A DNA stretch of 23,899 nt from a virus: the IMG/VR virus record IMGVR_UViG_3300046804_002374, positions 1 through 23,899 of that record. The stretch is one strand, 5' to 3'. The notes under the pieces are model-generated. The model searched no databases. It worked only from the letters and a program-made list of their open reading frames with translations, and was not told where the DNA came from. A program made the position numbers and the translations under genes. Positions 546 to 23,899 of the stretch are shown here, in pieces (position 1 is the first letter of the stretch; each line of letters opens with the position of its first letter).

Positions 546-1362
546 CTAAATTCTCCACTATTTCTTTATTTAGAAAACAATCTTCAACATAATGAAAGAC
601 TCCTAGTTGTTTATAGTTTCCAACGTATAGCTCTTTATCTTTATTAAAATAACTGTGTACCTGAGAATAGCAAGACCCCGGAATTGGGAACCAACCTTGT
701 AGGGCTGGTTTCATATGTACAAATTTAAATGGGGACTGACTATGAACAACATCAGACTCTATACCTAATATTTTAATTGCTATAGCAGATGCTACATCTA
801 AACTATAAAATTTTTGTGTAAATTTTGGGGTTACTTCAAAAAAGAATCTTTCCCAATTATAGGTAATATATTCTAATAGTTTAAAAAAACTGTGTGTATA
901 ATTTGACTTTCTAAAATAAAACATCCCGGAATAGATATTCGGTAATTGATTTTCTATAAAAGTTTTTCTATACACTTTATCAACAATATGATTTCCTCTG
1001 TAATCTAAGATTTGAGATGTAAAAAATAGGTCTCGCCCTTTAATAAATTCCCAACATTTTTTAAGATCCGATGTTACTAAAATATCTGCATCAAATACTA
1101 TAGTTTCATCATAAGGACTAGCATGATATAGCTTCCATCTATTTTCAATTTTCCATTCTGAATTTTGAGCTTGGTCGCCAAAGGGAATAGGTATGATCTT
1201 ATCAAAAACATTTTTATAATTATCTGGCACATTATCGTTAGTTACTAGACTTATGTTCTTAATATATGACTGGCTATGTTGTAATGATCTAGCAAGATAG
1301 TAGGCCTGTCTTACATAATCAGTATTGCTATTTTGAGCTAAAACTAAGTATCCTTTAGTCAT
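538..1362 (-). CDS. Glycosyltransferase-like protein (DxD), paralogue 2
   Basis: Predicted 274-residue cytoplasmic protein with the layout of a GT-A fold nucleotide-sugar transferase. The N-terminus MTKGYLVLAQNS is followed by a Rossmann-like beta/alpha stretch, and PYDETIVFDADILVTSD carries an Asp-Ala-Asp at about residues 91-93, the usual metal and sugar-nucleotide site of this fold. The next gene upstream is a paralogue with the same MTKG start and PYDET-DxD block. An in-frame TTG lies 15 bases upstream at 1377, but I prefer ATG 1362: it matches the paralogue's start, has AGGA at 1369-1372 six bases away, and overlaps the upstream stop as ATGACTAA. Similar proteins occur near tail-fibre genes in marine T4-like phages (from memory). 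Donor, acceptor and activity are unknown; it could glycosylate a virion protein or a host surface glycan. Family call moderate, reaction unproven. Confidence 0.85.
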   Translation of the reverse strand: MTKGYLVLAQNSNTDYVRQAYYLARSLQHSQSYIKNISLVTNDNVPDNYKNVFDKIIPIPFGDQAQNSEWKIENRWKLYHASPYDETIVFDADILVTSDLKKCWEFIKGRDLFFTSQILDYRGNHIVDKVYRKTFIENQLPNIYSGMFYFRKSNYTHSFFKLLEYITYNWERFFFEVTPKFTQKFYSLDVASAIAIKILGIESDVVHSQSPFKFVHMKPALQGWFPIPGSCYSQVHSYFNKDKELYVGNYKQLGVFHYVEDCFLNKEIVENLDG

Positions 1363-2206
1363 GACGTGTCCTATCAATATATCTTGCTAAACTGAACTTA
1401 TTCATAATATGCATGTCTAAATTACTTGTTTTTGATAGCGTATATTCTCCATGAAATTTTTCTTTTTCTAATAAAATTTGAAATTTGTCATCTTTAATAT
1501 CTAAAAGAATATCGCTGTCTAGCGTGTAATAAAGTTTTCCAGGTAAACTTTCAAACGCAAAATTATCTATCGATCCGTTCATCATATGAATAGCAATACT
1601 AAATGCATAATCGTTTCTAAATAAAGGGGAATCAATTAGATAAAGAGTTCTATAATAGGACCAATTTTCTCTAATGTTTTTAATTAAGACAAAAAAAGAT
1701 TCTGTGATAAAATTCTTTTTAAAATAAAATACTGTTGCCCAATAAAACGGAATAGCATACTGATTAAAATATTGAAAAGATTTAGTATCTCTCCATTGGG
1801 CGATATCATAACTGTCTTTATAAATTAAAAAATCTGCCTGTGTATTCCATATTTTTGAAAGATTAGTTGTAGAGATAATATAATCTGAATCTATAACTAA
1901 AGTTTCATCGTAAGGGGTTAAATCAAAACAATCTCCTCTGATAAAATTATTCCACTTAACGTTTCTCGAGTATAAACTTCCGTCATTAAATTTTTTAGTT
2001 TGATCTGTTTGATACCAAATATCTATTATTTTATCTACAATACTTTCTGCTTCAGGTTGACTATCTATAAGCCATTGTTTTGCATCTGTTGCAATCGACA
2101 CCGGAACATCTAAGTATTGTTTAACTCGTTTGGCTGCATATACAGCTAACTTGGCATAATCCATTTCTGGATTATTCTGAGCAAATATTAAAACACCCTT
2201 AGTCAT
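1355..2206 (-). CDS. Glycosyltransferase-like protein (DxD), paralogue 1
   Basis: Predicted 283-residue soluble protein, paralogous to the gene just downstream. It begins MTKGVLIFAQNN, has an early beta/alpha region with VSIATDA at about residues 36-42, and carries PYDETLVIDSDYI with Asp-Ser-Asp at about 106-108, the probable metal-binding DxD of a GT-A type glycosyltransferase. No signal peptide or transmembrane helix is apparent. The start ATG overlaps the stop of the upstream 115-residue gene as ATGA. The best Shine-Dalgarno (GAGGA, 2219-2223) is 12 bases away, so translation probably depends on coupling. The two copies differ clearly in length between the N-terminus and the DxD, so they are an old duplication and may use different substrates. 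The fold call rests on motif pattern only. Confidence 0.87.
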   Translation of the reverse strand: MTKGVLIFAQNNPEMDYAKLAVYAAKRVKQYLDVPVSIATDAKQWLIDSQPEAESIVDKIIDIWYQTDQTKKFNDGSLYSRNVKWNNFIRGDCFDLTPYDETLVIDSDYIISTTNLSKIWNTQADFLIYKDSYDIAQWRDTKSFQYFNQYAIPFYWATVFYFKKNFITESFFVLIKNIRENWSYYRTLYLIDSPLFRNDYAFSIAIHMMNGSIDNFAFESLPGKLYYTLDSDILLDIKDDKFQILLEKEKFHGEYTLSKTSNLDMHIMNKFSLARYIDRTRHD

Positions 2207-2550
2207 AGATTAACTAGATCCTCAACTTTGCGTTTTTTCTTTAAATCGTTGTATGTTTTAATAAATGTATTAGCAGCTTGAGTATAAATGTCAACTAACG
2301 ATTGTAAGAATTCTTTTCCATTTGCAATTTCAACTGGGATATTATTATCATCTAATATAACAAATTCCGCATAGCCAAGATCCAAAAGTGTTTTAATAAA
2401 ATTAATTAATTCTCTGCTGGCTATAAAACTAGCACCATTATGATAATAAATTAAACTTTGTGTAAATTCTTCGTAGGCTAATTTTTTTTGAGTATTCAGT
2501 GTAGCCATATAGTTGGCTGTTTGTATTGCTTTTTCTAATCTTTCGTCCAT
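2203..2550 (-). CDS. Small conserved phage protein of unknown function
   Basis: A 115-residue protein starting MDERLEKAIQTANYMATL and ending in a lysine-rich tail (KKKRKVEDLVNL). The N- and C-terminal thirds look helical. The middle (YAEFVILDDNNIPVEIANG, about residues 60-78) looks like a beta hairpin with an acidic turn. No catalytic motif is visible. The pattern resembles a small hypothetical protein that I recall from marine T4-like phages, but no function is known to me. It is the first gene after the sigma70-type promoter and has a strong AAGGGG Shine-Dalgarno 6 bases before ATG 2550. Its stop overlaps the next start (ATGA), linking it to the glycosyltransferase-like genes. A helper or adaptor for those enzymes is possible but is inference from position alone. 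Confidence 0.88.
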   Translation of the reverse strand: MDERLEKAIQTANYMATLNTQKKLAYEEFTQSLIYYHNGASFIASRELINFIKTLLDLGYAEFVILDDNNIPVEIANGKEFLQSLVDIYTQAANTFIKTYNDLKKKRKVEDLVNL

Positions 2551-2556
2551 AAGAAA

Positions 2557-2562
2557 CCCCTT
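2557..2562 (-). promoter_or_regulatory. Shine-Dalgarno AAGGGG inside hairpin arm
   Basis: AAGGGG lies 6 bases before ATG 2550 and is the strongest Shine-Dalgarno of the left operon. It falls wholly within the 3' arm (TCAAGGGGT on the minus strand) of the inverted repeat at 2556-2607. It would therefore be paired in any transcript that enters from the structural genes upstream. Confidence 0.75.
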
Positions 2563-2573
2563 GAGTTCTAAGT

Positions 2574-2602
2574 ATTATACACTAGAATACTTAGCTTGTC
2601 AA
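2574..2602 (-). promoter_or_regulatory. Consensus sigma70-type promoter
   Basis: On the minus strand TTGACA (2602-2597) and TATAAT (2579-2574) are separated by exactly 17 bases, a perfect bacterial housekeeping promoter. The predicted start is an A at about 2566-2567, which leaves a leader of about 17 bases carrying the AAGGGG Shine-Dalgarno. It would drive the 115-residue gene, both glycosyltransferase-like genes and the left-edge gene. In T4-like phages such promoters are used by unmodified host RNA polymerase early in infection, whereas the adjoining structural genes should be late. The spacer and -10 lie within an inverted repeat (9-base arms), so repression by a dimeric protein is also possible. 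Confidence 0.85.
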
Positions 2603-2619
2603 GGGGTCTAATAGGAAAA

Positions 2620-3528
2620 TTATAGAGTAGTTGTATTTGATGCTGTGTGAGCTAGGACAGATACATTTGACCCGCTTGGGCGAAAATTTTTCACTGTACT
2701 AGTTAATGTACCAGAAATATTTTCATCTATAAGAGGATTGGTTCCGGCATTATCTTGAAACTGTATTGTAAAGATAATTAACGTAGAGCTCGCATCTCTT
2801 CTTGCAGAAATTCTATATAAATTTGAAGAATAAGAACCAGCTGGTGCATTTTTTGTGTAGATTACTTGATCACTAGTAGTTAGATTATACCAGCCAATCC
2901 CAGAGCCAGTTCCCGAAGCAGCAGATGTTGCATTATAATTAAAAGTTACAGTACCCATTCCTTGCAACATTTGATCCCAAGTCCAACCTTTTTGGTTAGT
3001 TCCTGACTCATTGTATCCAGTAATTGTAGCTGAAAACTTAATTGAACCCCCGGCATTGAAGAAATATCTCATGTTTGCGGCTGATCCAGAACCGCTAGTA
3101 TTACCAACTACTTGTATAGTATGGGTCAAAGTACCGTTCCACGATGTGGTTCTTGTACTCGAAGTCAGTGCTTCGTCTGAATAATTTGATGTGCCTGCTA
3201 TTTCAAATTTATTTGTTTGAAGAACATTGGCAAAGTTGTTGTACTGGGAGAGCAATGCTGTAGAAATAAGAGTACCTGCTGTAATGCTTCTTAGATTATT
3301 GCCATCCGTCGATGTTGATGTTCCGACGGCAGTTCCGGTCTGATGCTGTCTTGCTTTAACCATGTCATTACGCAGTGCTATCCATTGGGAAGCTGTTTGC
3401 CTCTGTCCCGGAATTACTGTAGGCGATGTAACAGTTTGGCCGTATCCAGATTGTCCGGACCCTGCTCCAAAAACCGCATCTACCTTACTCTTAATTGTTG
3501 AATAATCTGCCGCTTGAATGACTGCCAT
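2620..3528 (-). CDS. Virion structural protein, marine myovirus type
   Basis: A 302-residue Gly/Ser/Thr/Asn-rich protein with few charged residues and little cysteine, as expected of a tail or fibre component. The N-terminus (YSTIKSKVDAVFGAGSG, then GYGQTV, then ASQWIALRNDMVKARQHQTG at about residues 45-65) matches from memory a conserved structural protein of cyanophages and related marine phages. The rest (about 110-300) looks all-beta, with TSWNGTLTHTIQV, RYFFNAGGSIKFSAT and TWDQMLQGMGTVTFNY blocks. It follows the 496-residue fibre-like gene by 12 bases with AGGA 7 bases before ATG 3528, and is the last gene before the promoter/hairpin boundary. It is most likely part of the tail-fibre or baseplate periphery; no enzymatic motif is seen. 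The structural call is fairly firm, the exact location in the virion unknown. Confidence 0.88.
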   Translation of the reverse strand: MAVIQAADYSTIKSKVDAVFGAGSGQSGYGQTVTSPTVIPGQRQTASQWIALRNDMVKARQHQTGTAVGTSTSTDGNNLRSITAGTLISTALLSQYNNFANVLQTNKFEIAGTSNYSDEALTSSTRTTSWNGTLTHTIQVVGNTSGSGSAANMRYFFNAGGSIKFSATITGYNESGTNQKGWTWDQMLQGMGTVTFNYNATSAASGTGSGIGWYNLTTSDQVIYTKNAPAGSYSSNLYRISARRDASSTLIIFTIQFQDNAGTNPLIDENISGTLTSTVKNFRPSGSNVSVLAHTASNTTTL

Positions 3529-3540
3529 TTTTCTTTCCTA

Positions 3541-5031
3541 TTATAGTATCACAGCTTCTACTGTAGATTCGCCGCCAGCGTTTGAACCTAAAGACACTGC
3601 AAATACATGAAAATGTGCCTTACTAATCACTGGTCCAGTTAATGCTTCAGCAAAGCCATCGCCGCATGCCACTAGTTCGTCGCCCTTTTTAACTTCGCCA
3701 CGAACTTTAACTGGACAACGCCCAGTCAGTGCTACAGCAACTACGTGATCTCCAGTAAGATCTTTGTTCATTAGATATGCTGGGTTAGTTGAAACTACAC
3801 CGATTGCTTTTTCTCCTCTTGCGGCAACAGTAACCTCGGCTGTTCCGCCCACCATTAAAACTGTCCCCGGCTCATAGTCTGCATCTGCTAGATAATTTTC
3901 TGCCAAGTCAGCATAATAGGCGCTTGTTGCGATTCCTTCAAAAAAATCTGATTTTACGTTAGAATAATTTGTGCCGTCAACTACTTTAAGATCTCTTACA
4001 GCAATAGTATTATATAAGGTTGTCACTGATGCATCTAAGTATCCAGTGTTATCAACTTTTAATTGATCAGCTTTGGTAGCAATGCCGTTGAATGTGGCAG
4101 CATATACTGATCCAAACTTTGCAGCATTGCTACCTAAGTTAGTAATATTATTAGTTCCTGGTAATACATCTGCTCCGGACAATACCAAAGCAATTTTTTC
4201 GCCGCCTGATGTAGTTTTTAAAGTAATTGTACTTCCTACTGTGTTCTTAATAATACCCTTATTTGGACTTTCAATGAAAACAGCTAGATCGTTAGCATTA
4301 CCAATTGTAATACCGGAATCTCCAAATGCGCCTTGACCTGCTTGATCAATAATATCATTAACACTCTGGCCGTCTAAAAGCAAAGCATTAGTCGCTGTGC
4401 CATGAAATTTTGATTGTGTATTGTTAGTATTGGTAATACCTGTGCTCGAATAGGGTAAATTTAATCCGACTCTTACAGTTGTAAACGCCGTTGCAATACT
4501 GTCTAACGCATTAACATCAAACTGTTCCGGACTTATAACATACACAACATTGCCGTCAACAACGGCTTCAATTATAGGATGCTCATTATCGTCAGTATCT
4601 TTTACGCTTCTTGATCGCATTTGCGTAATACCTGCATTAGCAACTGATTGCGGACCAACTAGAATATAGCTTGTTCCGTCAAATACAGATAATTGTTTAT
4701 TATCGCTGTGCCAGAACAAATCGCCTGCTTTAGACGTCGACGGTGTTTGATTATCAGTAACTGATACAGCCAACGGTTTCCATCCCGCTAAGGATCTGTA
4801 TACATACAGCTTCTCTTCGCTGGTTTTATACCATACTTGGCCTTCAACGGGGTTAGAGGGGGAACTATTTGAAGCAAAATTTTCCATTAAAAATACAAAA
4901 TTTTCATTTTGTATCTCACCATACCCGGCGTAGTTTTTACCAATTAGTTTTACTCCGTATTTTGTTTCAACTGTACCATCTTCTACAGTTGTTAAACTTA
5001 GTCCATTTGTTTTATTAATTACATAAGCCAT
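3541..5031 (-). CDS. Fibre-like structural protein with IMC/peptidase-G2-like C-terminus
   Basis: A 496-residue protein, third of three tandem paralogues. Residues 1-215 are the shared module: GKNYAGYGEIQNENFVFLMENFAS, GQVWYKTSEEKLYVYR, and GDLFWHSDNKQLSVFDG. A middle LPGTNNITNLGSNAAKFGSVYA block (about 290-312) is of the kind common in phage fibres. The C-terminal 120 residues begin YYADLAENYLADADYEPGTV and run through GEKAIGVVSTNPAYLMN and VALTGRCPVKVRGEVKKGDELV. This resembles the Peptidase_G2 intramolecular-chaperone domains that fold and then release trimeric tail appendages. I cannot confirm catalytic residues, so self-cleavage is only possible. Start ATG 5031 has a strong AAGGGG at 5040-5045 eight bases away and lies 34 bases after the previous stop. 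Probably a trimeric fibre; host-binding role inferred. Confidence 0.9.
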   Translation of the reverse strand: MAYVINKTNGLSLTTVEDGTVETKYGVKLIGKNYAGYGEIQNENFVFLMENFASNSSPSNPVEGQVWYKTSEEKLYVYRSLAGWKPLAVSVTDNQTPSTSKAGDLFWHSDNKQLSVFDGTSYILVGPQSVANAGITQMRSRSVKDTDDNEHPIIEAVVDGNVVYVISPEQFDVNALDSIATAFTTVRVGLNLPYSSTGITNTNNTQSKFHGTATNALLLDGQSVNDIIDQAGQGAFGDSGITIGNANDLAVFIESPNKGIIKNTVGSTITLKTTSGGEKIALVLSGADVLPGTNNITNLGSNAAKFGSVYAATFNGIATKADQLKVDNTGYLDASVTTLYNTIAVRDLKVVDGTNYSNVKSDFFEGIATSAYYADLAENYLADADYEPGTVLMVGGTAEVTVAARGEKAIGVVSTNPAYLMNKDLTGDHVVAVALTGRCPVKVRGEVKKGDELVACGDGFAEALTGPVISKAHFHVFAVSLGSNAGGESTVEAVIL

Positions 5032-5053: not shown

Positions 5054-5061
5054 TATTTAGT
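5054..5061 (-). promoter_or_regulatory. Possible T4-like late promoter (ACTAAATA)
   Basis: In the 34-base gap before the 496-residue gene, the minus strand reads ACTAAATA, one mismatch from the NATAAATA late-promoter core of T4-like cyanophages. Spacing would give a leader of about 17 bases with the AAGGGG Shine-Dalgarno. In AT-rich DNA such a match is weak evidence. Confidence 0.25.
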
Positions 5062-9711: not shown

Positions 9712-9719
9712 TATTTATC
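9712..9719 (-). promoter_or_regulatory. T4-like late promoter (GATAAATA)
   Basis: On the minus strand GATAAATA matches the NATAAATA -10 core of T4-like cyanophage late promoters and lies in the 47-base gap between the giant gene and the 200-residue gene. A second near match, TATAAATG, lies just upstream at about 9722-9729. The expected start is close to 9706, giving a leader of about 14 bases. It would let the 200-residue protein and the three fibre genes be made independently of the 14-kb giant transcript. No -35 is expected for this class. Confidence 0.6.
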
Positions 9720-9739: not shown

Positions 9740-12700
9740 TTATTCGTTTGACATGTTTGTATACCAAACTGCAGGTGCTGCCCTTAAGAAACTAGCAATT
9801 TGATTATCGCCGTACAGATTGTTATCCCAATTAAATCCTGTTTTCTTAACTACAGTAATTCGTGTTCCGACGGCAAGTTCGTTAGTTAATAACAATTGAG
9901 GATTTTCTCCGTCTACGGCAAAATCTGCTTCAATCTTCTCGTCCCCTTCAGGGCTATATACAAACTTATTCATATTATGATAAGAATAAGGAACCTTGCT
10001 TAGTCTCCTGTTACCTACAAAAATTTTCCAAAAGTTATAGTCGTCCATAAATGATGAAGAGCTAGTATGTTCCATTTGGCATTTATAAGAATATGAATCC
10101 TTAGTAATCAACGTGCCTATAGTATAAAGTGTGTTTGGTTCCCAGATTTGAGTCAAATCATATCCCCCAACTAGAACTTCAATGTCATTAGACATGCCAA
10201 AACCTACAGGAATTTCTGTATCGTACGGGGCCCAATATTCTGTATTTGTAGGTAGAACACTCCTTGATCCAACTAAAGCCGTATAATATCCGCTTTGATA
10301 TGAAACTACATCATTCGATACGTATTGGGATCCGCTTATATATTCTCCCTTATAATTTAAATTATAATCTGCAAACCATTTAACAACTCCGCTAGTATCA
10401 TAATTAGGACTTGCTGTATCTTGATCTCCTTTTATAGGTATAAATGTTAAATTTACATATCGGGTTCCATCTGAAATGTGATTTTCAATTAACTCTGTAT
10501 CAAGATAAGGAATAGTCTCTTGTGGACCAATATCTATAACATAAGACCCCTCTTTATGGATAGCAGGGACTCCTGTTCCTAATGTTCCTCGTCTTAGTCT
10601 AAGTAAAGCATTACCGTCAATCTCGAAATATTCAATCCTTTCTCCCTTGATTTCAATCACCCCTGGCTTGTTTGCATTAATGTTAGGTTGATCGAACTGA
10701 GACGAATCTTCTACTAATATATAAGTATCATCAAATTTTAAATCTTGAGCAAGTCTAGTTTGTTTATTCTTGTTAAGACGCTTAAAATGAACTCGATTTA
10801 AAATATCTTTAAATTGCATATAGCTTACAGAATAGGTAACTACTTCACTATTAAAAGCAATAACTTGAACTATATCAGTTTCATCTAATTCTGTCTTAAG
10901 TCTTACTGATCTATGATCTAATTCAAGAGAGTAATCTACACTATGAGTGAGCATTTGTCCATTTTTAATTACCCAGATATAGTCATCGGTGCTTACCGGT
11001 CTGTCTAACTTAAATCGTTGTCCGAGTTTATTTGTAAAAGTATAATAATCGGCCGATCCGGGTACTAAGACATTGGCCGGTGTGAGACTATTAACTGATC
11101 TTTCAACTTTCAATATGGCATGATTATAAAAACTTATTACTTCTATTTCTGTTCCGGTAGGATAATTAGATGTAAATGTAATCGAACCGTTATCATTGAT
11201 ATTATAATCGCTTCCTGCACTAATTACAACAATCATCGCTGCACCATCAATATACTTTCTCTTGTTAATTTTAACTGTTACTCCATAGAAATCTACAGTA
11301 AAATCTTTTCCAACCTTGAGCTCTATACCTGCAATAAACACTCTAACTTGAGTGATATCAAAGGTTGCTGAATCAGCTTCATACGGAGATAATTTATATT
11401 CTAGTGTGTTATTTGTTAGCACAAAGTTTAATGTCTTAGACGGTTGAAGGAAAGTTTGTCCCTTACGAACTAAAACGTTATTTTCGTACGGTTGCAAGTT
11501 TAGTGCGGTTAATTTTTCTTGAGTCAAATTAATTAAATTATATGTTGATGTTCCTGAAACAAAATTTATTATTTGACTCTTCATTACTGACGACGTTTGT
11601 TGGGTAACGTCTGATAAAGAATCAGTATCTATCAAATAGTTAATCAATGAACCATTATCTATAGAATTAGCAAATCGTATTCCTACAAGGTTTGATACAT
11701 CGTATGTACTATCTGTTTTAAACAATGTAAAGTTTAAAACAGAGCCATCAACTAAAACTGTAGCATTGAGCTCGTCTAACCACGGAGCCTTAGTAATAAA
11801 TTCTTTTGTAACTCCGTCGCCAATAAAATAATCTGTATCTAAAATATTATTAGCATTAAACCCTAAACTTACTATACTTACTAATGACCCGGCCTCTGGC
11901 GGATCTGCTAGTACAACATTATTATTTTTCCAATCAATAGTATAATCAATTGGATCTAAAAATTCACCACTTACTTTTACAATAACAGACCTATCTGTCG
12001 GAAAATATTGCCCAATTTTAAATGTGTCATTGCTACCGTCGCTGACATAATTTTTAAACAATATCTTAGGTGCGCCGCCTGTTGGTCTATGATAAACTTT
12101 GATTGCAACACTATCAAATATTCTACCAGGAAGTAGCTCTTCGGGAGATGTAGAATTTAACTCTGTCACTAACTCATCACCGTCAACAATAATATCATCG
12201 GGTTCTAAACCCGTTGCTGATGTAAATGCAGACCCTACAAACTGACCGCCGCTTAATTGCGTGTCTAGTTCTGTGAAACCAATTACATTAGACCCATCGG
12301 TATAATTTTTTCTAATTGTAATCCTGTCATTCTCGTCTATAGTGATATAGGCAGGCAATTCAACAACATCTATTTCTCCATCGCCGATTACTGATTTCAT
12401 TTGAGCATTAGGATTTAAGGCATGTGTGTTGAGTGTTAAAAATACTGTATTTGTTATAGCAGTAAATGGTTGATCGGGTACTTCAAAATCGTCATTATAA
12501 AGAGCCGTTCCTTTAAGGATTCTAACATTACTGATACTTCCATTAAAATATCCGTTAGCAGGATCAAGTCCATAGCCTATTCTCAAAGGACCTAGGCCCG
12601 AGAAATTAAAACTTACAGAATTTACAGTATTAAGTTTCACTCCGTCAACAAAAAAGTAAACCGTATTACCTTCTTTAACCAATGCTATATGGTGCCAAGC

Positions 12701-15700
12701 ATTTGGTGTAAGGATGTGAAAGTTTCCTTGGTACACATTACCGTTATTGGTATTATTAGGAATTAGATATCCAACCCCGTTTCCGTCGATATTATGCCCT
12801 ATTCTAATTTCTTTACCAGCGATGTTTTGTCCTATCGCTAGGATTGGGGTCCAGTTGTTAGTAGGAAGACTGTCTGGTCTCACAAAAAATTCAATAGTAA
12901 AATTCTGTGTTCCAAATGCATAATTTGAACTTTGCGCAGCACTAATATAACTAGATCCGTTTAATCCTAATACGTCTACTCCATCGAATGGTCCCCCGTA
13001 GATAGAGTACGAAGGCGACCCTACAAAACTAATTAAATCTGTATCGATACTATAATTAGGATCATCCAGGCGAATTTCATTACCATATAATTGAATTTTT
13101 ATTTCATCACCGCTTAATGGTGCAACAATAAATCTAACAATTCGAGACACTGGACTAAATGGCACTAATGAATAATCAATTCCTAATTCTTTTAGCGTAT
13201 TATTAATGTATACTTTCGGGGCAAATGAAGTGTTTGGAATTTTAAAATCTTTAGTAGTGCCGTCGCCCTGATACCTATCTCCAGGAGATAGCGGATCTTT
13301 TACGTCAATAAGTTTATTAATATATACGTTTAAGATTTGGCCAGCGTCCGGTGTATATTTTAATTGAACTGTGTGATCATTGGCTCCTTGAACTACTGAT
13401 AAATTATCATAGTCTTCATCGAAGCTATCCCATGCATCTGAGAACCACGGTAAAGCATCCCAACCACCAACACTTCTAAAACCCAGTCCGGTAATATTGA
13501 CGCCGCCATAGTCTATACCAGTCATTAGCTGAGATAAATCTTTACCCCATTTCCCTGATTCTACATTATAGAAAAAGTTAATCCTATCAGCTGCTGACAA
13601 ATATGAAATATCTTTTTCATATTCAATAATAACTACATCGCCTGCAGCAGGTGGACTAGATAAAGTTAGACTTCCGTAGTAGCTAGTAAATCCTCTGTTT
13701 TTGGTTTTTTTAGTGGCCAATTGATATTCATTACGGAGTACTTCAGTTCCGGGATTAGTAGGGTCTGCTAAGTATTCTTCTCCGTTAACAATTCTTACTT
13801 TACTATTGCCCACTGTTTTAACTGGACTATATTTTAGATCAAATTGTAAACGCGATCCAGTGCCATAAAATATTTCAGTTTCTGTAATTTCATATATGAA
13901 ATAATTATTTGTAATTCTATCAAATTTTACAGAAATCTTATTTGCTCTAACAGCTTGAGTTTCAATAATTGCTACAGCTTTACCTGCGATTCCGTTGACT
14001 GACAAACCGCCGTCTAACAACACAGTGGGTGCTTTTAAATAACCATAACCCGGATTTGTGACAGTAATTCTGTTTACTACACCATTTGAAATATAGGCTC
14101 TAGCTGTAGCACCAGTCCCGTAGCCTCCAGAAATTTTAACTATTGGAGGATTAATATAACCCGAGCCTCCGTTTGCAACTTCAATACTTAAAACACTAAA
14201 TCCTAAATTGTCTTTCCAATTTTTCCAAGGATATGTATTAAGAATCTCATCACTTGAACTTTCAATCACCGCTTGAGTTTGGCTTAGTTCATTAACTTTT
14301 AAAAATAATTTTGTTATATCGTAATCTGGATTGACATAAGGTATGATATCAAAGTCGGAAACCATAGTTTGAGTATTATCAATATTCTTATAAGATGATA
14401 CATACTCTCTAATATTCGTTCTATATGGTTTCACTTCGTTTATATACGACTCGTAGTCTGATAGATTATCATTATTATAGTTTACTTTCTGAACTAGTGC
14501 GCCTACATTATGTTTTGAAACTACAAAACTAGTCTTTGTCACCCAATCAACAAATGGTTGTTCTCTTAATACAAACCGTAGACTTGCAAAGAATAATTTA
14601 ATATATTCTGATCTCAGTTCCTCGATTAGCAAATTGTTTTTAATGCAGTCTAATATAATCCTTAATTCGTTTAAGGCAAATGAATCATAGATTGCAGAAT
14701 CAAATAGGTTAGTATCATATCCTACTGTAGAATTAGAAAAATCATATAGAGTTGGTAGGAATTTAATTGTTCCGTTTTCTCTTCCTATAACAGAATAATT
14801 TTGTGTATAATCAATAGTAGTATTATTTGCAAATTTTTCTAATAGCAACCAACCGCCTGTTCCAATATTTTTAACTTTTACAGTTTCTCCAATATTTGAT
14901 TTTAGATTAGCTAGTTCATACGTGTTGTTTACAAAATAATCTATTTTAGTAAATTCATTATAACCTGTTGCATACCAGTCTATATAACTCCAAAAAGAAT
15001 TTGTATTAAAGGCCTGACTAATTATTTTAGTCCAGGATTTTTTAATAGAGTTATAAGAATATATTGCCCACTTGTCGAAAGAATTTTCATCACTGTCAAT
15101 AAGGACTGAGAAATTTCTAATTGTTAAACTTGTATTTGCTAAATTATATCCAACGCCTTTATTATTAATCTTTACATTTACCACTGATCCATTAGCATCT
15201 AGTACTGTTCTAATTTCTGCGCCGGTACCGTCGCCGATAATTTTTATATACGGTGCATTGACATATCCATTTCCAGCATCAATAATAATAACGTCAGTTA
15301 TTCTTCCATTTTCGATAACAGGTTCTAATACAGCGGGCCTTAGTGCTCCGGTCGAAATAAACCTTAATAGACTGTTAGTTGAGATTTGTGTGTCCCACAA
15401 CCCTGAGTATTTTGATGGTGCATCGTCTAGTTTTTCTAAAGGACTAATATTATAATTGTCTGTAATAAGATTATTAGCTAAAACAGAGTTTACCCCCTCG
15501 ATGAATAATTTTAAAGCTTCACCTCTATTAACAAACATAGATTGTCTTGGTTTAAACTCAACACCGTATCTAAGTTTAAAGGGTAAATTACTATCCGGTA
15601 GTGGTTTATCGTTGTCATCTTTTCCGATAAGACTGTTGATCCATTTCTTTTCAATATTTTCAGGAATATATAAACTAGACTCGCTAAGTAATTTCCATTG

Positions 15701-18700
15701 ATTGTGAATATTAAGTTCTTGATTCTCAATAGTCCAATATTGAACAGATAGTACTGTATGTGTATTAGTTAAAAGGTTCTCGGTGTTGACTACACTAAAG
15801 GAATTAGGACCTGTTAATGCTAGACATGCATATCCGTACGATCTAGGATCAGCAATAAGATTTGCTATTTCAGCAGAGGATAATGTTCGACCTAAAACAT
15901 TAGGAACTACTGTTTTATTCTTAACCCAGAAATAGTAAACACTTATAAACTTTTTGCTAACAGTATCGTACGTTTGAACTTCACTATAAACTAAATCTCC
16001 GTATTTTGATTTACCGCTTATATTATTAGCTAATCCTTTTTCTGTATCAGCAAGTTTATCCCACTCTGATGGAAGATATTTTGATTCTACCCATTCGTAA
16101 ATATCAATACTTGCAGAGGCATATAATGTGTTCCATGTTGTGGATCTATAGACTACATCCCCTATACTATTTTCTAAAAATTTAGCTCTGTTAAGGTCCC
16201 ACCATAATAGGCCTACCTTGCTCTTAGTCCATTTTACTCCGTCATTAACATTAACTGACGAATCGCCTGTCGAATAAATTGCAGGGTCAAAGTAAGATTT
16301 AAATCTTATTTCTTGTTCTGCTATACCGGGAATTTTTCCTTGGTTAGGTTCAACAATATCAAGATATTGAATTAATTTTTGTTCAACGCTATCATATAGG
16401 AATGCTTTTTTAATTTTATTAACATTTGGTTTGCTTTCTTGTTGGTGTAAGACGGCCCAGGATGTAGCATTAGGATTTCGAGAATAAGAATAAATTCTAC
16501 CAACATTTTTTTCTTCGGAGGCGATACCGATATCATGATACGGTGTTCCAACTAATATGGTGTTTTCGCTTGAGCTTACCGAGCTTGCAAATCCGTCAGT
16601 TGACGACAAATCTGTTATGTCCTCTCCAATAAATCTAGATTTTAATGTTTCGCCGTAGATATAATTGTTATTATACTTGTCAAAAATATCAACTTTTCCG
16701 CCATTTATAACTGTTACAAAATTTGTAGAATTATTATCAAATGTAGTTGAATTTTCTTTTTTAATTGAATCTTCGTCGTTGATATAATTAGATCCGTATA
16801 GCTGCTGAGATACAGTTCTATCTAATAATTTAGAATAAACATCAAATGTGGTGTCCGAAATTATTGAACTATTTTTAGATACTACGACTATAGTTTTATT
16901 ATCTATACTGTAAGAAACATTAGTTCCAAAATTTCCGCTTTCTTTAAAGTATGGACTTGTGATTTCATGTGATAGTTGATAAGAATTATTATTAAGTTTG
17001 TAAACAGAAATTTTTCCTAATACATTATAAGGACTTGATACTAAAAATTCAGATGCGTCTGCAGTAATATCGATGCTTTCTCCAAATCTTGATGTAGTAT
17101 TAACCGAAGATCCGTTTATTGTTTGAGCTAAATTCCATGTATCTAGGCCGGTTCGTTTATATACCTTAACTTGATTTGTACTCGGTAAAGATACTATAAA
17201 TGTGCTGGCTTGATCTGAAAGTTTAACATCCGAGGATGCGCCTGAAAATATAGTCGGGAATACAATTCCAAAACTAATGTTGAAATCATATATTCCAGAT
17301 CCTGTAAAACTGCTGTTTACTTCGAAACCGACTCCATTTATAACATTAGATACCTGAGTATTAGTAGGCAAAACAGCAGCCGATACCTGTGCAAGATAAA
17401 ACTTTTCGTCTGCGCCCGGATATGCTATAAAATTACTTCCAAGTGTAACCGTACTTGTAATTTCGAGTGGGGTGTAGATGTTAAACAGCCCCACTTCATT
17501 ATTTGTAGCCACAGCAACGGTATAAGAATCTTTATAGTTAACTATGTCTATCGTTTTTAGGTGGCTTGTAAATCCGGTAGCAAATGCGCCTTCATAAACC
17601 GGAAATCCTGATATGTACACATACTGTCCAACATTATTTTTTTGATGAATTTCATAGTAACTACCGTCTATATTCTTATGTCCAATTAATAATAATTGTT
17701 TATCAGGCGAGAACTTTGTTACAAGACTGTCTGTTTCTACCTGAGTAGGCGTTGGAATTTTTTGGAGCTCGTTCCAAGCTGACGATGAAAACGTTTTTGT
17801 AAGAATAGTTGTAAAATTTTTACTAGAAACTGCCGCTAATGTACCATCCTTAGTTATTGATACAAATTTTCCAAAATAACCATCTTCTACAGGGAATGTA
17901 GTATCAACAGCTGAATCTTTAAAAATTTTACTATTTTTGTATACAGCCCATAGACCTTGTCCGTTATCTTTAGACCACACTAACTCGCCGTCTTTAATTT
18001 TATTAGGTATAAATTGATTAAGATCGTCTATCGAGTTAATTTTACATTGCTCAAATGTATAAATTACAGTCTTTGATAAATCTGTAATAGGATCCCATCC
18101 TGTGATATTAGTCGTTATTAAAATTTTATCTTGATTAGTAGAAGTTACCTTATAGTAACCTGTAACTATTGAAGGATTAGATATAGCTATAATACCACCG
18201 GCCGTAACTGGACTCTTAGTGTTTAATTCTATAGTTAAAGTCTTATTGGCATAAGTTATTGCTTCGATTTTTTCTACCATTGTCGTAGTTCTATATACGT
18301 TCCAATGATCAGTAGACAAGCCGTTTTCAAAAGCACACCAAATATAATCTCCGTCTTTTAATTCAAAGACCTTTGTTCCAACTAAATCGTCAAGAGAGTC
18401 TATATACAAAGCAACATCATCGTATCGCACGAATCCCGGACTTCGCAAAAATTGCTTTGTTCCCGTAGTGGGGAAAATTCCTCTATCTAAACTTACAAAA
18501 TTCTTAGGCTTAATATATAGATCTTTTACTTGTTGTCTATAAACAAGATCGGTAGATGAGCTATTAGTTTGTTCTACCACTTCAATAGGCTGAGGTTTTA
18601 ATTTAAATTTTGATTCGTCTAATATAAATTCTACTTCATCAAATCCCGAACTTGCACCATATTGACCCACTCTAACGGCCCACTCTTCATTGAATGTTAG

Positions 18701-21700
18701 GCTGTCGGTGTCGTCTGCACTTAGGACATCAAATAGTTTAGACAATGAATTTTGAGTTCCTTTTTCTCTAATATAACCCTGATAAAAATTGTATTGACTT
18801 ACATCATCTTGTATTATGTTCTGCAAATATTGGCGCTTTTGATAACCAATTAAATGCTGTGCAAATTTTTGTTGTTCGGCATCAAAATTACTAGTATCAA
18901 GATCGTAAAAATCAGTAAACTGTTGAGCCCTATAGTCCCAGTTAGCCTTTAAAACTTTTTCTGGTTTGTCGTTTAATCTATACCAGTCAACGTCATTAAA
19001 ATTTTCAGTTCCTAAAATTTTCTTTGTAGCAGAATAATAGAATGCTCCATACTTGACAACATCGCCGAGTGAATAATCTACCCAAGGTTGCCAATCATAT
19101 ATCTTTGCTTGATCAAATATGAATCCCGGAACGTCGAATCCCCCAGACCATCCACTAGTCAGGTAACCTAATACTTTTATTTTTTCTTGCTTAATACCTG
19201 CATTTAGATCATAGATAACGTCATTGAATAATGTCTTATTATCAATGACAAGAGCGTGTTCTTTTTGTACAAGATAAAGAGTAGCTCCATAGATTCCATG
19301 ATTAGTTTTTACTGGCTGCAAACTAAAAATATTTTCTGTTCTTGTAATATTTGTAAACTCATAGTCTAATTTTTGGCCGTCAACCCTGAAAATTTTATAA
19401 TCGTAAAACGGATCTAAAATGTCATTAATTACACTATAGTCGGCTCTTACGCTTAATAATCCTGCAGAAGGACTAATACTTAATACAGCCCCTTCTCCCC
19501 AGTTTTGCGTAGTCCAGAATAAAAATTCTTTTAGACTTGTTTCCCAATTAGATACTGTTTGAAGAGTGTTGTTAAACGTATCGAAAATAAATCCTTGATC
19601 TTTTAGATACTCTCCGTATCCCTGTATAAAGTCAGCTACTTCTTGAATAGTTGTTAACTTAGTACCATAACTTAGTATTAGTTCCTCTCTTTTATTAAAA
19701 GTCTTTCTAATATATGCATCTACACCCCCTACCATCGGAAGGGCAGGAAGTTTTACTAAATTAACCGTACTAAACGTATCTGTTGCTGTAAATGTTACTG
19801 TAGTTTTATAATATACATTATTATATTTTACATTTGTTCCGACCGAGTATGTTTTTCCTTCTTCCCAATTGACGAAGGTTTCAGATATTCCGCCTACATT
19901 GATAACTCTATCAGTTAATTCATAACCATAAAATTTAAAAAATGGGTCTTCAAAATTATAACCTTTTAATTCAAAACCGTCTGTGTACTTGGTTATAATA
20001 ATTCCGCTGTAATTTAATTTTTTAATCGGAGAGCTAGTGTTTAAGAAAATAGAGAAATTTTCTTCTGGTATAAAAACTCCCCCGGTTGAGCTTGGATTTT
20101 TACTATCTAAAACAAGATTAAATTTAGCCTTTGATGTGAATCCGCCTAGCTTCGAACCGATCTGGACAGTTAATAATGAAAGTGCTTCTTTGTAGGAGTT
20201 GACTAAGTCTTGAGAATCTGAAGTAATATAATCAATTACATAGTTTACTAGACCAGCCGTATAAGAACGTTGACTAGATTGAGGCAAGGTCGGTACAACA
20301 ACGTCTTTTAATCTTATACGAAGACCTGTATCTTTATATACTAGTTGTCCTGCATTATTTCTTTGAATTCTGCTAAGGTCAAAGGCAAGACTTAAAGTCT
20401 TAGCAGGATTCAACAAGAGTAATGTTTGTATTAACGCAAAAGGATAATAGCTTGACTTTCTCCAAGTAGCCTCAACAGGTCCTTGATCTCCGAAAATATA
20501 ATACCCTTCGCTTGTTGGTTTAATAACTCCTGCTACAAAATTTGCGTTAACTGGATCTATAAGATTACCCTCGGCGTCGACTGGTACTCCATATTGTAAT
20601 ATAGTCCTAGCTATGCTATCATTTTTCTTAGGTGGCTTTCCTGGTGCTCTTACTATACCCTGTTGAAGGTCATTCCATAAAATTTGGTTGTCGCTTGTAT
20701 ATGGAGCAGGACCGTAGACTTCGTCCCACCAAGCCGGCTTAATAGTTAATTCTAAACATTCCCAGGGATGGGTATGGGGCCTGTCGGTGTTTAAAAACCA
20801 TTTATAGGCTCCTCTCCAAAATGCCGGAACCTCTGTTCCATCCGGAGCATAGTTATCTCTGTAGTTAAAAGTGAATGGATTTAATCTATCGTAATAAAGT
20901 TGTTTAGTAAAATCTTGTCCAATAAGAGTAGTCCATTGATAGAAATAAGTTCCTAGAACTCTTTCAAACTCTTGTCTTGAAAAATCTGTAGATTTTCCAT
21001 ATGCTGGAATAAAATTGTGTATATTAAACTTTTCTTTATCGTAAGATATTTTTACATTATTAAAAATTCTTTTTTCTAATTCTAAAATTAGATCATCTCT
21101 AAAGTCGCCATATGCCAGCGTAATACTTCCGTCGTGGCCTTGTATTACCTCTACTGGCTCTAAGTAGGTATCATCTGTAAATTTTTTAGGTTCAAATAAA
21201 GGATAAAGTCCTAACTTACTTGGTGTGCTAGGGCAATAACATCCGTCAGTTGATTCATATTCGATAATTTCAATTAATGCTTCCTCTGTTAAATCGATTA
21301 AAAATTCAATATAATGGTCATCACCAAATATATAATCAATTCCGTGCAGAAGTTGTTCGCCGTTAATATAGACATTAACGGCCTTGTTCGACAATGATGT
21401 CATGCTAAAAATGTTTGTAATAGGATATTTCTTGACTAGAGAATTATCTATTATGTAATCTAGTTTATTATAAGCGCCGAGGCCAAACATATCACTAAAG
21501 TAATATGGTTCAAACTTGCTCTTGTTTTGTCTCATTAGATTTAAAATATAATCAACATGGCGCCTAGTGTCTGTATCAATTCCGCTATTAGTTGCTGTTA
21601 CAATGAAAGCTCTCTTAAATTTGCCGTAATCATCTTTTGACTGTTGCAGGGCTTTAACAATGTTAAATTCTTTTGAAGCTAAATGTAATAGGCCTAATAC

Positions 21701-23899
21701 TGTAGGACTACTATGTTGTACAAATTTAGTTCCGTAAGGAGTAATTATACCAAGATCTCTTAAGTTGCTAGCGCCAGGAAAATCGCCATCAAAACTGTCA
21801 AGATTTTCAACAATTGAATCTACATGCGTAATTACTTCTCCTAAAGTAAAAGAAGTAATATCATTGTTTAGTGGATTATTTTGAAGATTGATCGGTACTT
21901 CATAATATCCATTTTTATTCTTAGATTGTTTGGCAAAGCATTTAATAGATACTACGTCAGTTTCTTTAATTTCGTATGAATCTAAAATTTTAATAAACTT
22001 TCTTACCGTGCCAGTTTCGATAGTATAAAAACTTGGATTTAAACGAACACCATTGACATATACACGTATTTTTAAATCTGAAAGGTCGTCTACATTGTCA
22101 TAAACATCTATTGGAAAATTATTAATTAACGGGACTACTGTTTTAACTCCGTCAATAATTTTTTCCACTGTTTCATTTTTATATACTCTTACGATTGGTT
22201 GATATTCTAAAACTTTAGAAATTTCCCATCCGTTAACATATTCAAAACTCTCAAGAGTCTTGATCATCTTTAAAAATCCAGCATTAATATTTTTAGTTTC
22301 AATTACTGATGATGTTTTGTAATTAAATGTATCTTGTAATAAATTAAAATTAAACAGGATGTCACCAATATTATCAATATTTTGATAAGATAATGCGAAA
22401 CCTAATTCTGAATCTACTGTCCCTGTATCTGAAACTTTATAAGAAAATATCTTTGAACCCGTAAAGGTAGATCCGCTATATGTAGATTCATTGCTATAGC
22501 TTAGACCTGTTGAATCAAATACATCAAATAACGGGGCTTGATTTTGAGAAAATTTCTCCTGCCCTTTTACCCACGTTTGTCCGTTAAACCAATACATTTT
22601 ACCCTGACTTACAGATCCCTGTCTAACTAAAACTACTTCATTTTCTTTAGGCGTAGTATCTTCTGCTTCTACAAAATGAATTTGTGTTCGTGTCTGGCCT
22701 ACTACATCAAAGCTATGGATGCCGGTAGTTTTATTAAGTAAAGGAACTTCAGTTGTTAGAGTTTGATCAAAATATAATTTAATAATGTAACTATCTACTA
22801 CTGAAGCATAATAGGTTTTTCCGTTAAAAAGACCGCCTGTGTTGATATTACCATTATTTCTATAAATTATTTTACTGCCGTTGACTAGCTTGTGTGTTTC
22901 GTTAAATGTAATAGTGTTTGCGGTTGTATTAATTCCTGCTGTTCCGTAAAAATTTATAATGTATTGAGGTTTGTTAATCTCGACAAATGTAACATTATAA
23001 ATTTTATTCTTTACTAGAGTATCTGTGTCTGCTGTAAACAAAACACGCATACCCTCAACCAGAGGAATCCCATCAATTACATATCCTAACTGACCTTCAA
23101 TATTTGAAAATACATCAGTAGTAACCGTATCTATAAGATCTACGTCTATTTTTGAAACATGTCCAAAATTAAATAATTTAAGTCCGGCTTCAAATTCAAT
23201 AATTGGTCTTGTTGCCCTAGCGTTTTGATCTAGGCCGACTGTCGATCCGGCTATTTCATCTGAAATTAAAATTACATCTTGATGATACCATCTGTTATAT
23301 CTACTCCATGGATTTTTATCAATACTACCTCTATTGATAACAAGATAATCTTTATATTTTGAATACGTTGTAGCAGAACTAAATGCTGTTTGATCGAACG
23401 GCTCGTCATCGAACAGCATTGTTATGTCTTCTGAATATGTCGTTAGTATTTCAAGATCTTTTTCGCTAATAAGTTTAATACTTGTTCCAACACCCTCAAC
23501 ATACCAAAATCCTTTAGAATAAATTTCAGGTAAAATATTTCCTGTAAATTTTAGTTTCATGCCGTTAGACAACTTATATCCATTGGTCATTGTAAAAGTT
23601 TTTTTACCAAGAATTTCTTGGTCAACGTTTAAAAAAGTATTTTCATTAATATCAAGTATATGGAATACACCGCCGGCATCTAGATTCGTTTCACTAGTAT
23701 AGTACAAAACATCTGGAGCATCAAACGGTACTTCAAAGATTATTTTTCCTGTAGTTTGTCCGTTGCCTATAACCCCATCGTTATATCTATCAAGCTCCCC
23801 TACTGTTCTTTTAAACTTTATGCTTAGGGGATTATTTGGACAATCGATGTCAAAGACATAGGTATATCCTCTAAATAGCGTCACCTGTGGGTTGTTTTC
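9740..23899 (-). CDS. Giant multidomain tail/baseplate-associated structural protein, N-terminus beyond window
   Basis: One frame runs without a stop from the right edge to TAA 9740-9742: 4,719 codons in view. A GTG at 23884 is not the start, because the frame continues to the edge as ENNPQ and the residues fuse into a domain core ([15 protein letters not shown]). Domains in order, by nucleotide: cupredoxin-like module (about 23899-23650); conserved [12 protein letters not shown] motif (about 23290); NG/DY beta-modules (about 22085-21270); CBM5/12-like modules (19881-19740, 19100-18970); mixed helical region (about 18900-18750); beta-propeller (about 17890-16480); GxGY blocks (about 15325-15120 and 14203-14008) flanking a helical region (about 14700-14370); LamG lectin (about 13025-12420); more NG/DY modules (about 12065-10850); a GERIEYF...LRRGTLGTG motif (about 10640-10560); two more CBM-like modules. 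The pattern suggests a long extracellular tail or baseplate protein with many carbohydrate-binding parts. A baseplate or long-fibre role is inferred. I see no frameshift or repeat collapse. Confidence 0.92.
10022..10150 (-). other. CBM5/12-like aromatic module 4 in giant protein
   Basis: [20 protein letters not shown], then [13 protein letters not shown] and YNFWKIF. It has the leading Trp, Y-T-I-G core, Y-K exit strand and closing Trp. It follows module 3 by about 20 residues, making a C-terminal tandem pair. Confidence 0.55.
10215..10355 (-). other. CBM5/12-like aromatic module 3 in giant protein
   Basis: [20 protein letters not shown], then [21 protein letters not shown], keeps the core (Y-V-S-N-D-V-V-S-Y-x3-Y-Y) and the closing Trp of CBM5/12-type modules. 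It sits near the C-terminus, where the protein's free tip or attachment end would be. Confidence 0.6.
12420..13025 (-). other. LamG/concanavalin-A-like lectin domain in giant protein
   Basis: About 200 residues with the hallmarks of a Laminin_G_3 jelly roll. [20 protein letters not shown] and [10 protein letters not shown] form the first strands, APILAIG-like strands follow, and [20 protein letters not shown] is the signature W-H-H-I-A...FFVDG. Then come [20 protein letters not shown] and [11 protein letters not shown]. Such domains bind glycans or protein partners; in a phage tail protein host-surface binding is the likely role. Confidence 0.85.
14008..14203 (-). repeat. Gly-Tyr repeat block 2 in giant protein
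   Basis: [20 protein letters not shown], then [16 protein letters not shown] and [20 protein letters not shown]. It is the second copy of the motif about 1.1 kb earlier in the transcript; the two copies flank a helical region ([20 protein letters not shown] at about 14670-14610). Confidence 0.65.
15120..15325 (-). repeat. Gly-Tyr repeat block 1 in giant protein
   Basis: [20 protein letters not shown], then [31 protein letters not shown]. This is the G-x-G-Y-x2-P-x-V/I-x-I...GTGA...G-x-V-x2-I-x-V-x3-G-x-G-Y motif, found in duplicate here. Likely a small beta-domain used as a spacer or sugar-binding repeat; function unknown. Confidence 0.6.
16480..17890 (-). repeat. Predicted beta-propeller repeats in giant protein
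   Basis: Seven or eight repeats of about 40-75 residues share a hydrophobic strand, a D/N turn and a second strand ending in an aromatic-rich strand. Examples are [88 protein letters not shown] and [17 protein letters not shown], the last followed by GRIYSYSR. This resembles FG-GAP or integrin-alpha-like propellers, but canonical calcium-binding D-x-D-x-D-G loops are missing. Confidence 0.6.
18970..19100 (-). other. CBM5/12-like aromatic module 2 in giant protein
   Basis: [20 protein letters not shown], then YSATKKI and DVDWYRL, is the best match of the four. It has the leading Trp pair, Y-S-L-G-D-V-V-K-Y core, aromatic YY and closing W that form the flat sugar-binding face in CBM5/12. Confidence 0.6.
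19740..19881 (-). other. CBM5/12-like aromatic module 1 in giant protein
   Basis: [20 protein letters not shown] followed by YYKTTVTF fits the pattern W-x4-x-Y-x2-G-x2-V-x-Y-x3-Y-Y of carbohydrate-binding modules 5/12 and phage fibre modules. The closing Trp of the family is replaced by a hydrophobic stretch. Confidence 0.45.
23650..23899 (-). other. Cupredoxin-like module in giant protein, ligands lost
   Basis: The first visible residues read [17 protein letters not shown], then [20 protein letters not shown] and GGVFHILDI. This is the layout of the RG-x-TY-x-F...LYYYCxxHxxMGG domain common in marine phage virion proteins. The copper-type Cys, His and Met of the family's C-terminal motif are absent here ([12 protein letters not shown]), so metal binding is unlikely. 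Family assignment is from memory. Confidence 0.55.

Follow-up and report, generated by a model that had tools for sequence, protein, structure and literature searches.

A Probable Read-Through Lock with a Host-Type Promoter Inside It Precedes a Phage Gene for a 115-Amino-Acid Protein

Introduction

In the genes e, soc, 49 and I-TevI of phage T4 and in mobE of phage Aeh1, the read-through RNA sequesters the Shine-Dalgarno (SD) sequence and/or the AUG, and a promoter in the 5' arm of the hairpin yields an RNA that lacks this arm and is translated (PMC3014915; PMC2988022). The genes under such hairpin-promoter control are all late genes (PMC2988022); those of T4 and Aeh1 ride on early or middle RNA and are freed by a late promoter (PMC3014915; PMC2988022). 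In seg43(25) of Aeromonas phage 25, the hairpin directly adjoins the ribosome site and the SD is free (PMC2988022).

Here we analyzed a viral DNA of 23.9 kb (IMG/VR record IMGVR_UViG_3300046804_002374, positions 1-23,899), and "the window" hereafter refers to this whole stretch. A gap of 69 nt ahead of a gene for a 115-aa protein resembled the T4 e type in that a promoter lies in the 5' arm and the SD is predicted to be masked in the read-through RNA, and the T4 e leader behaved in the same manner in our folding test. Unlike that of T4 e, the promoter of the window matches the sigma70 consensus exactly, and the RNA arriving from upstream is probably late. Thus, the order appears to be reversed compared with the T4 e type, a reversal that the first-pass annotation of this DNA had proposed and that these two features support. 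Some relatives of the 115-aa gene have the T4-like order, with a late motif in the arm.

In the transposase gene of IS10/Tn10, a sigma70-type promoter starts RNA inside the 5' arm, and RNA that enters from external promoters folds so that its ribosome site is hidden. The arms come from the transposon end, and the arrangement guards against chance insertion beside promoters. The window would likewise have a lock around a sigma70-type promoter; in contrast to IS10/Tn10, the gene concerned is a fixed part of a phage genome, lies downstream of a probable late operon and has no transposon around it.

Results

An Exact Sigma70 Promoter Overlaps Two Nested Inverted Repeats

The gap (positions 2551-2619, minus strand) lies between the 302-aa gene and the 115-aa gene (Table 1) and ends in TAGACCCCTTGACAAGCTAAGTATTCTAGTGTATAATACTTAGAACTCAAGGGGTTTCTT, directly followed by the ATG of the 115-aa gene at 2550. 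Its TTGACA-17-TATAAT (minus strand, 2602-2574; spacer of 17 nt) is the sole exact match in the window, in which 0.02 matches were expected from the base composition. The outer repeat, ACCCCTTGA/TCAAGGGGT, is a perfect inverted repeat of 9 bp; its 5' arm includes the first bases of the -35 hexamer and sets CCCCTT opposite the SD AAGGGG. The inner repeat, CTAAGTATT/AATACTTAG, is perfect over 9 bp and can alternatively be read as 12 bp at 92%. When the 69-nt gap was shuffled, two nested repeats of at least 9 bp were found in 0 of 3000 shuffles and one such repeat in 18 of 3000. The promoter on the minus strand and the two nested perfect 9-base repeats that the first-pass annotation had described were therefore recovered as claimed, at 2602-2574. 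Further, the annotation had placed the transcription start at about 2566-2567, just past the inner stem, and the spacing rule predicts 2567, one base beyond that stem, which would leave a leader of 17 nt that includes the SD. An Rfam search of the window returned no match.

Table 1. Features of the gap ahead of the 115-aa gene and of its surroundings in the window.
Feature	Position	Strand	Basis
-35 hexamer TTGACA	2597..2602	-	Sequence; TTGACA retained in most of 50 sigma70-type leader clusters
-10 hexamer TATAAT; overlaps inner 3' arm	2574..2579	-	Sequence
Outer stem 5' arm ACCCCTTGA; anti-SD arm, overlaps -35	2599..2607	-	Perfect inverted repeat; pairs with SD in fold
Outer stem 3' arm TCAAGGGGT	2556..2564	-	Perfect inverted repeat
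Inner stem 5' arm CTAAGTATT; within promoter spacer	2586..2594	-	Inverted repeat
Inner stem 3' arm AATACTTAG	2568..2576	-	Inverted repeat
Predicted transcription start (7th base after -10)	2567..2567	-	Predicted from spacing rule
SD AAGGGG	2557..2562	-	Sequence; 6 nt from ATG at 2550
115-aa gene, putative target of the control; helix-hairpin-helix-hairpin-helix fold predicted	2203..2550	-	ORF; AlphaFold2 pLDDT 93
283-aa gene; start overlaps stop of 115-aa gene by 4 nt	1355..2206	-	ORF; ATG near stop in 69/73 clusters
Upstream structural-block gene, 302 aa; putative source of read-through RNA	2620..3528	-	ORF
Tail/structural protein gene, 496 aa; same likely late unit as 302-aa gene	3541..5031	-	Virion and tail-fibre PHROGs
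Late-type motif CTAAATA ahead of 496-aa gene	5054..5060	-	ATAAATA enrichment

The SD Is Buried in the Predicted Fold of the Long RNA and Free in That of the Short RNA

The read-through RNA of the window folded at -24.7 kcal/mol (z -3.8) with the SD inside the stem, and the promoter RNA at -1.6 kcal/mol with the SD mostly free; the unpaired probability of the SD (over AAGG) was 0.0 in the long RNA and 0.74 in the short RNA. This probability is too coarse a measure because in some leaders an internal loop separates two helices and holds part of the SD, and the cost of opening positions -15 to +3 was used in its place as the measure of the lock. The opening cost was 22.6 kcal/mol (z 6.5) for the long RNA and 3.4 kcal/mol for the short RNA of the window, and 8.2 +/- 2.2 kcal/mol when the upstream part was shuffled. 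These values agree with the earlier suggestion that AAGGGG is buried in read-through RNA and left free in promoter RNA. As in T4 e and I-TevI, predicted folding pairs the SD and/or start codon in the read-through RNA, and the promoter lies over the 5' arm, such that its own transcript, from the predicted start, lacks that arm.

The T4 gene e leader, which served as the positive control, gave an SD unpaired probability of 0.0006. A probability of 0.05 or lower was also obtained for about 11% of 170 ordinary genes on contigs of the family. Given this background of buried SDs, single cases are not decisive and recurrence is.

The Layout Recurs in Relatives with Unrelated Stems

Two profile scans of IMG/VR detected 516 and 571 relatives of the 115-aa protein. 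The leader set covers part of these (the best 80 per profile scan): 194 loci together with the window gave 112 distinct leaders, which fell into 73 clusters (80% identity over 75 nt). In all 73 clusters, an upstream ORF on the same strand ended 24-122 nt before the start. A promoter was scored as sigma70-type when it matched at least 5/6 bases of TTGACA and at least 4/6 of TATAAT, with a spacing that was nearly always 17 nt; 50 of the 73 clusters had such a promoter, and their predicted leaders were mostly 10-22 nt long. The median opening cost in these 50 clusters was 12.3 kcal/mol for the read-through RNA and 3.3 kcal/mol for the promoter RNA. In 28 clusters, the start region was buried more strongly than when the upstream part was replaced by dinucleotide shuffles (p<=0.05), and 22 missed this level. 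Fisher's method gave a combined p of about 1e-18 for the first 33 clusters, although the p-values of the clusters are optimistic because clusters are related and not fully independent.

Across lineages, the stems were unrelated in sequence and alike in placement. The outer stem of the window corresponds to ACTCCTAAGATAA/TTATCTTAGGAGT in L107, and other lineages have the stems TCTCCTTTAA/TTAAAGGAGA (L096) and CTCCTATTAGT/ACTAATAGGAG (L219). In L095, the stem has three T.G pairs across AGGAG, and the arm extends to the start codon in L061, L095 and L130. In the group nearest to the window, the outer arm is AATCTC, AACTTC or AACCTC opposite GAGATT or GAGGTT. Several of the sigma70-type leaders that missed p<=0.05 (L055, L062 and L090) resemble seg43(25) in that the hairpin adjoins the SD without burying it; many leaders of the 115-aa gene differ from seg43(25) and take the SD into the stem.

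The first-pass annotation had named compensating changes in both arms as a check. The layout recurred across lineages with different arms, but covariation was weak within the one group that aligned well (group-2). Its 19-bp helix was paired in 89% of cells, vs. at most 52% when slid; four pairs were changed on both sides, which 67 of 500 shuffles also reached, and the covariation score was reached by 11 of 500 shuffles, a modest signal. The comparison as a whole, with the layout recurring in 50 sigma70-type clusters on unrelated stems, favors the annotation's proposal that the read-through RNA would be silent and the RNA made by host polymerase active.

Other Sampled Sigma70 Promoters of the Family Mostly Lack a Buried SD

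From four records of the family (G004, G011, G013 and G016), 19 other exact sigma70 promoters were taken, 11 of which had a scorable start. The opening cost of the long RNA at these 11 was 1.3-6.2 kcal/mol, and none was beyond the shuffles. Near-consensus promoters in G001, G005, G006 and G010 had short leaders too, and the long RNA of only one of them besides that of the 115-aa gene (the promoter of a 366-aa gene, G010:6941) had its SD strongly buried. Short leaders are thus a general feature, whereas a lock is uncommon at the sampled promoters.

Ahead of a gene for a protein of 391-392 aa, the spacer of the sigma70 promoter is itself a GC hairpin between TTGACA and TATAAT or TATACT, at L161:8040-8115 (G010:C1:8040-8115), G005:C1:11720-11794 and G001:C1:136594 (minus). 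The hairpins are ACAGGAGC-UUCG-GCUCCUGU, ACACCACC-UUCG-GGUGGUGU and ACACCGCC-CCCG-GGCGGUGU, their stems differ by compensating changes, and they are possibly terminators inside a promoter. The PHROG of this gene is named HNH endonuclease, yet the protein has a VWA-like DMSGSIG motif; in G010 the gene is downstream of a MoxR-like AAA gene.

The Class of Promoter in the Leader Differs among Relatives

The motif NTAAATA was present at -12 to -40 in 18 of the 23 non-sigma70 clusters vs. 2 of the 50 sigma70 clusters (Fisher p 1e-10), and in those 18 it sits where the sigma70 promoter would be. A significant hairpin was found in 13 of the 23. In L192 and L193, GTAAATA is within the arm that masks AGGAG, which is the arrangement of T4 e, and some leaders (L084, L096 and L206) have both TATAAT and TAAATA. 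The leader of the window has no TAAATA and carries the exact sigma70 promoter instead; the T4-type pairing of a nested phage late promoter with a late gene was not found there. Because TAAATA is enriched, we take the TAAATA sites in leaders to be late promoters that probably work.

In a marine clade (L123, L125, L129, L132, L133 and L136), a short perfect hairpin takes up the last 15-16 nt before the start and has the SD in its loop (AGTGA-GGAAA-TCACT followed by ATG, with variants that have other loops), and a late-type motif TTAAATA is just upstream. The hairpins of the marine clade L111-L122, which is without a clear SD, occupy the last 15-16 nt as well (AGTAAA-TAC-TTTACT followed by ATG) and contain the late-type motif TAAATA. 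If used as a late promoter, this TAAATA would give a nearly leaderless mRNA.

Late RNA Plausibly Enters the 115-aa Gene

In the window and four relatives, ATAAATA was enriched 42-fold upstream of genes, and TAAATA was enriched 12- to 28-fold upstream of genes in three other records. The late-motif search also located GATAAATA at 9712-9719 of the window, and this motif and the one at 5054-5060 make it plausible that late RNA enters the 115-aa gene. A terminator scan of the window found no clear terminator between the upstream ORF and the 115-aa gene. A gene for a gp55-like late sigma factor was present in two relatives, one of which was scanned (phrog_12791, E 1e-76).

The T4 portal family (Portal_T4) was detected on several contigs of relatives of the 115-aa gene, and one of these portals shared 55% identity with its counterpart in Sinorhizobium phage Phosso (469 kb) and 53% with the one in Agrobacterium phage Atu_ph07 (490 kb). 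These jumbo T4-like phages have a similar block, a giant structural gene and then tail genes. One ORF of ~4,714 codons occupies 9740-23884 (minus) of the window, and its position matches that of the giant structural gene in Atu_ph07 and in Phosso.

Downstream, the 283-aa gene is probably transcribed together with the 115-aa gene. It is the first of two tandem related, glycosyltransferase-like genes (538-2206, minus), both of which begin with MTKGxLxxAQN; one matched phrog_1903.

The 115-aa Protein

Foldseek matched the model of the 115-aa protein to phage proteins with a DUF4376 domain (E 3e-4, TM 0.6-0.7). Searches of the PDB by sequence and fold gave a prefoldin-like coiled-coil likeness alone (Z 7.4, rmsd about 5 A), which is weak and not distinctive; that the protein is an assembly chaperone would be a guess from the model. 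If anything, a chaperone-like role would speak against the lock, since the reason for silencing such a protein in late RNA is not obvious. PHROGs and Pfam gave nothing above threshold for this protein. The best match to CdiI_ImmP (Pfam; E 0.0011) was under the family cut-off in the first member, and we do not give it credence. A tblastn search of the isolate phage collection detected no relative of the 115-aa protein at the sensitivity used.

Discussion

We consider it quite probable that the gap acts as a read-through lock and that the host-type promoter inside it serves the 115-aa gene itself. Late RNA from the tail genes would carry both arms of the hairpin, fold and bury the SD, together with the start codon in some relatives. 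With the SD buried, the 115-aa gene should be poorly translated from the tail-operon RNA. RNA polymerase with a sigma70-type factor would start at about 2567, beyond the 5' arm, and the resulting 17-nt leader, unable to form the hairpin, would expose AAGGGG. The 115-aa gene, and probably the overlapping 283-aa gene too, would in this manner be expressed from the host-type promoter, possibly early, and independently of the late tail operon. The lock would be a variant of a known device, and the comparison of relatives supports it well, with a layout that recurs, predicted folds that differ between long and short RNA and a rarity among the sampled sigma70 promoters.

The palindromes could instead act as DNA, either as an operator that covers the -10 (which the first-pass annotation had raised) and binds a dimeric repressor or as a cruciform, with the match to the SD being incidental. 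Short perfect dyads centered on the -10 in some relatives fit such a role, for example TTACTATA ctg TATAGTAA in L037 and CATAGTGTA caa TACACTATG in L045. However, no dyad was conserved: the sequence, length and center of the stem vary widely among lineages, and the arms extend to the SD and in some leaders to the ATG. The mismatches, moreover, are not strand-symmetric. In a palindrome search that scored G.T and A.C as equal mismatches, the ratio of G.T to A.C in the arms was 48:20 in the real leaders and 21:4 in the strongest set, and about 1:1 in shuffles (p about 0.001). An excess of G.T indicates that the sense strand pairs as RNA and is not expected of a DNA dyad read by protein, which counts against the operator; we regard a DNA role as quite improbable.

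Among readings at the RNA level, the hairpin might mainly terminate the late tail mRNA or protect its 3' end, its overlap with the promoter and SD being due to chance. The stem of the window is closed by CCCC/GGGG and then TTTCTT, and in Phosso the matching tail gene is followed by a terminator-like hairpin of the ordinary kind. Termination of late transcription, another suggestion of the annotation, is thus possible in the window. Most relatives, however, end in GGAG or AGGAG followed by mixed bases without a U-tract; the terminator scan did not pick the site, and the SD itself is part of the strongest stems, so that a role chiefly as terminator or protector is unlikely. Several lineages have stems as long as about 20 bp, which would suit an RNase III-type processing site that parts the tail mRNA from the downstream mRNA. 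Many stems, however, span just 8-12 bp and are interrupted by internal loops, and processing leaves the position of the promoter in the 5' arm unexplained. We think this very improbable.

The read-through lock may also be independent of the kind of promoter that it contains. On this broader proposal, which we put forward tentatively and judge to have slightly less than an even chance of being correct, stems of unrelated sequence arose or were replaced repeatedly, the DNA of the -35 and -10 also supplies the arm by which the SD or start codon is masked, and related phages switched the class of promoter between host sigma70 and phage late types, which would have reset the timing of the 115-aa gene yet kept it deaf to the tail operon.

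The device by which T4 silences late genes in early RNA can, on our preferred reading of a lock with a host-type promoter inside it, be set the opposite way, and the promoter in it would be exchangeable. The relatives offer dozens of natural versions for testing how one set of bases encodes both a promoter and an RNA structure. In giant phages, similar locks would be worth seeking at any gene that follows a strong late operon and has a promoter of its own.
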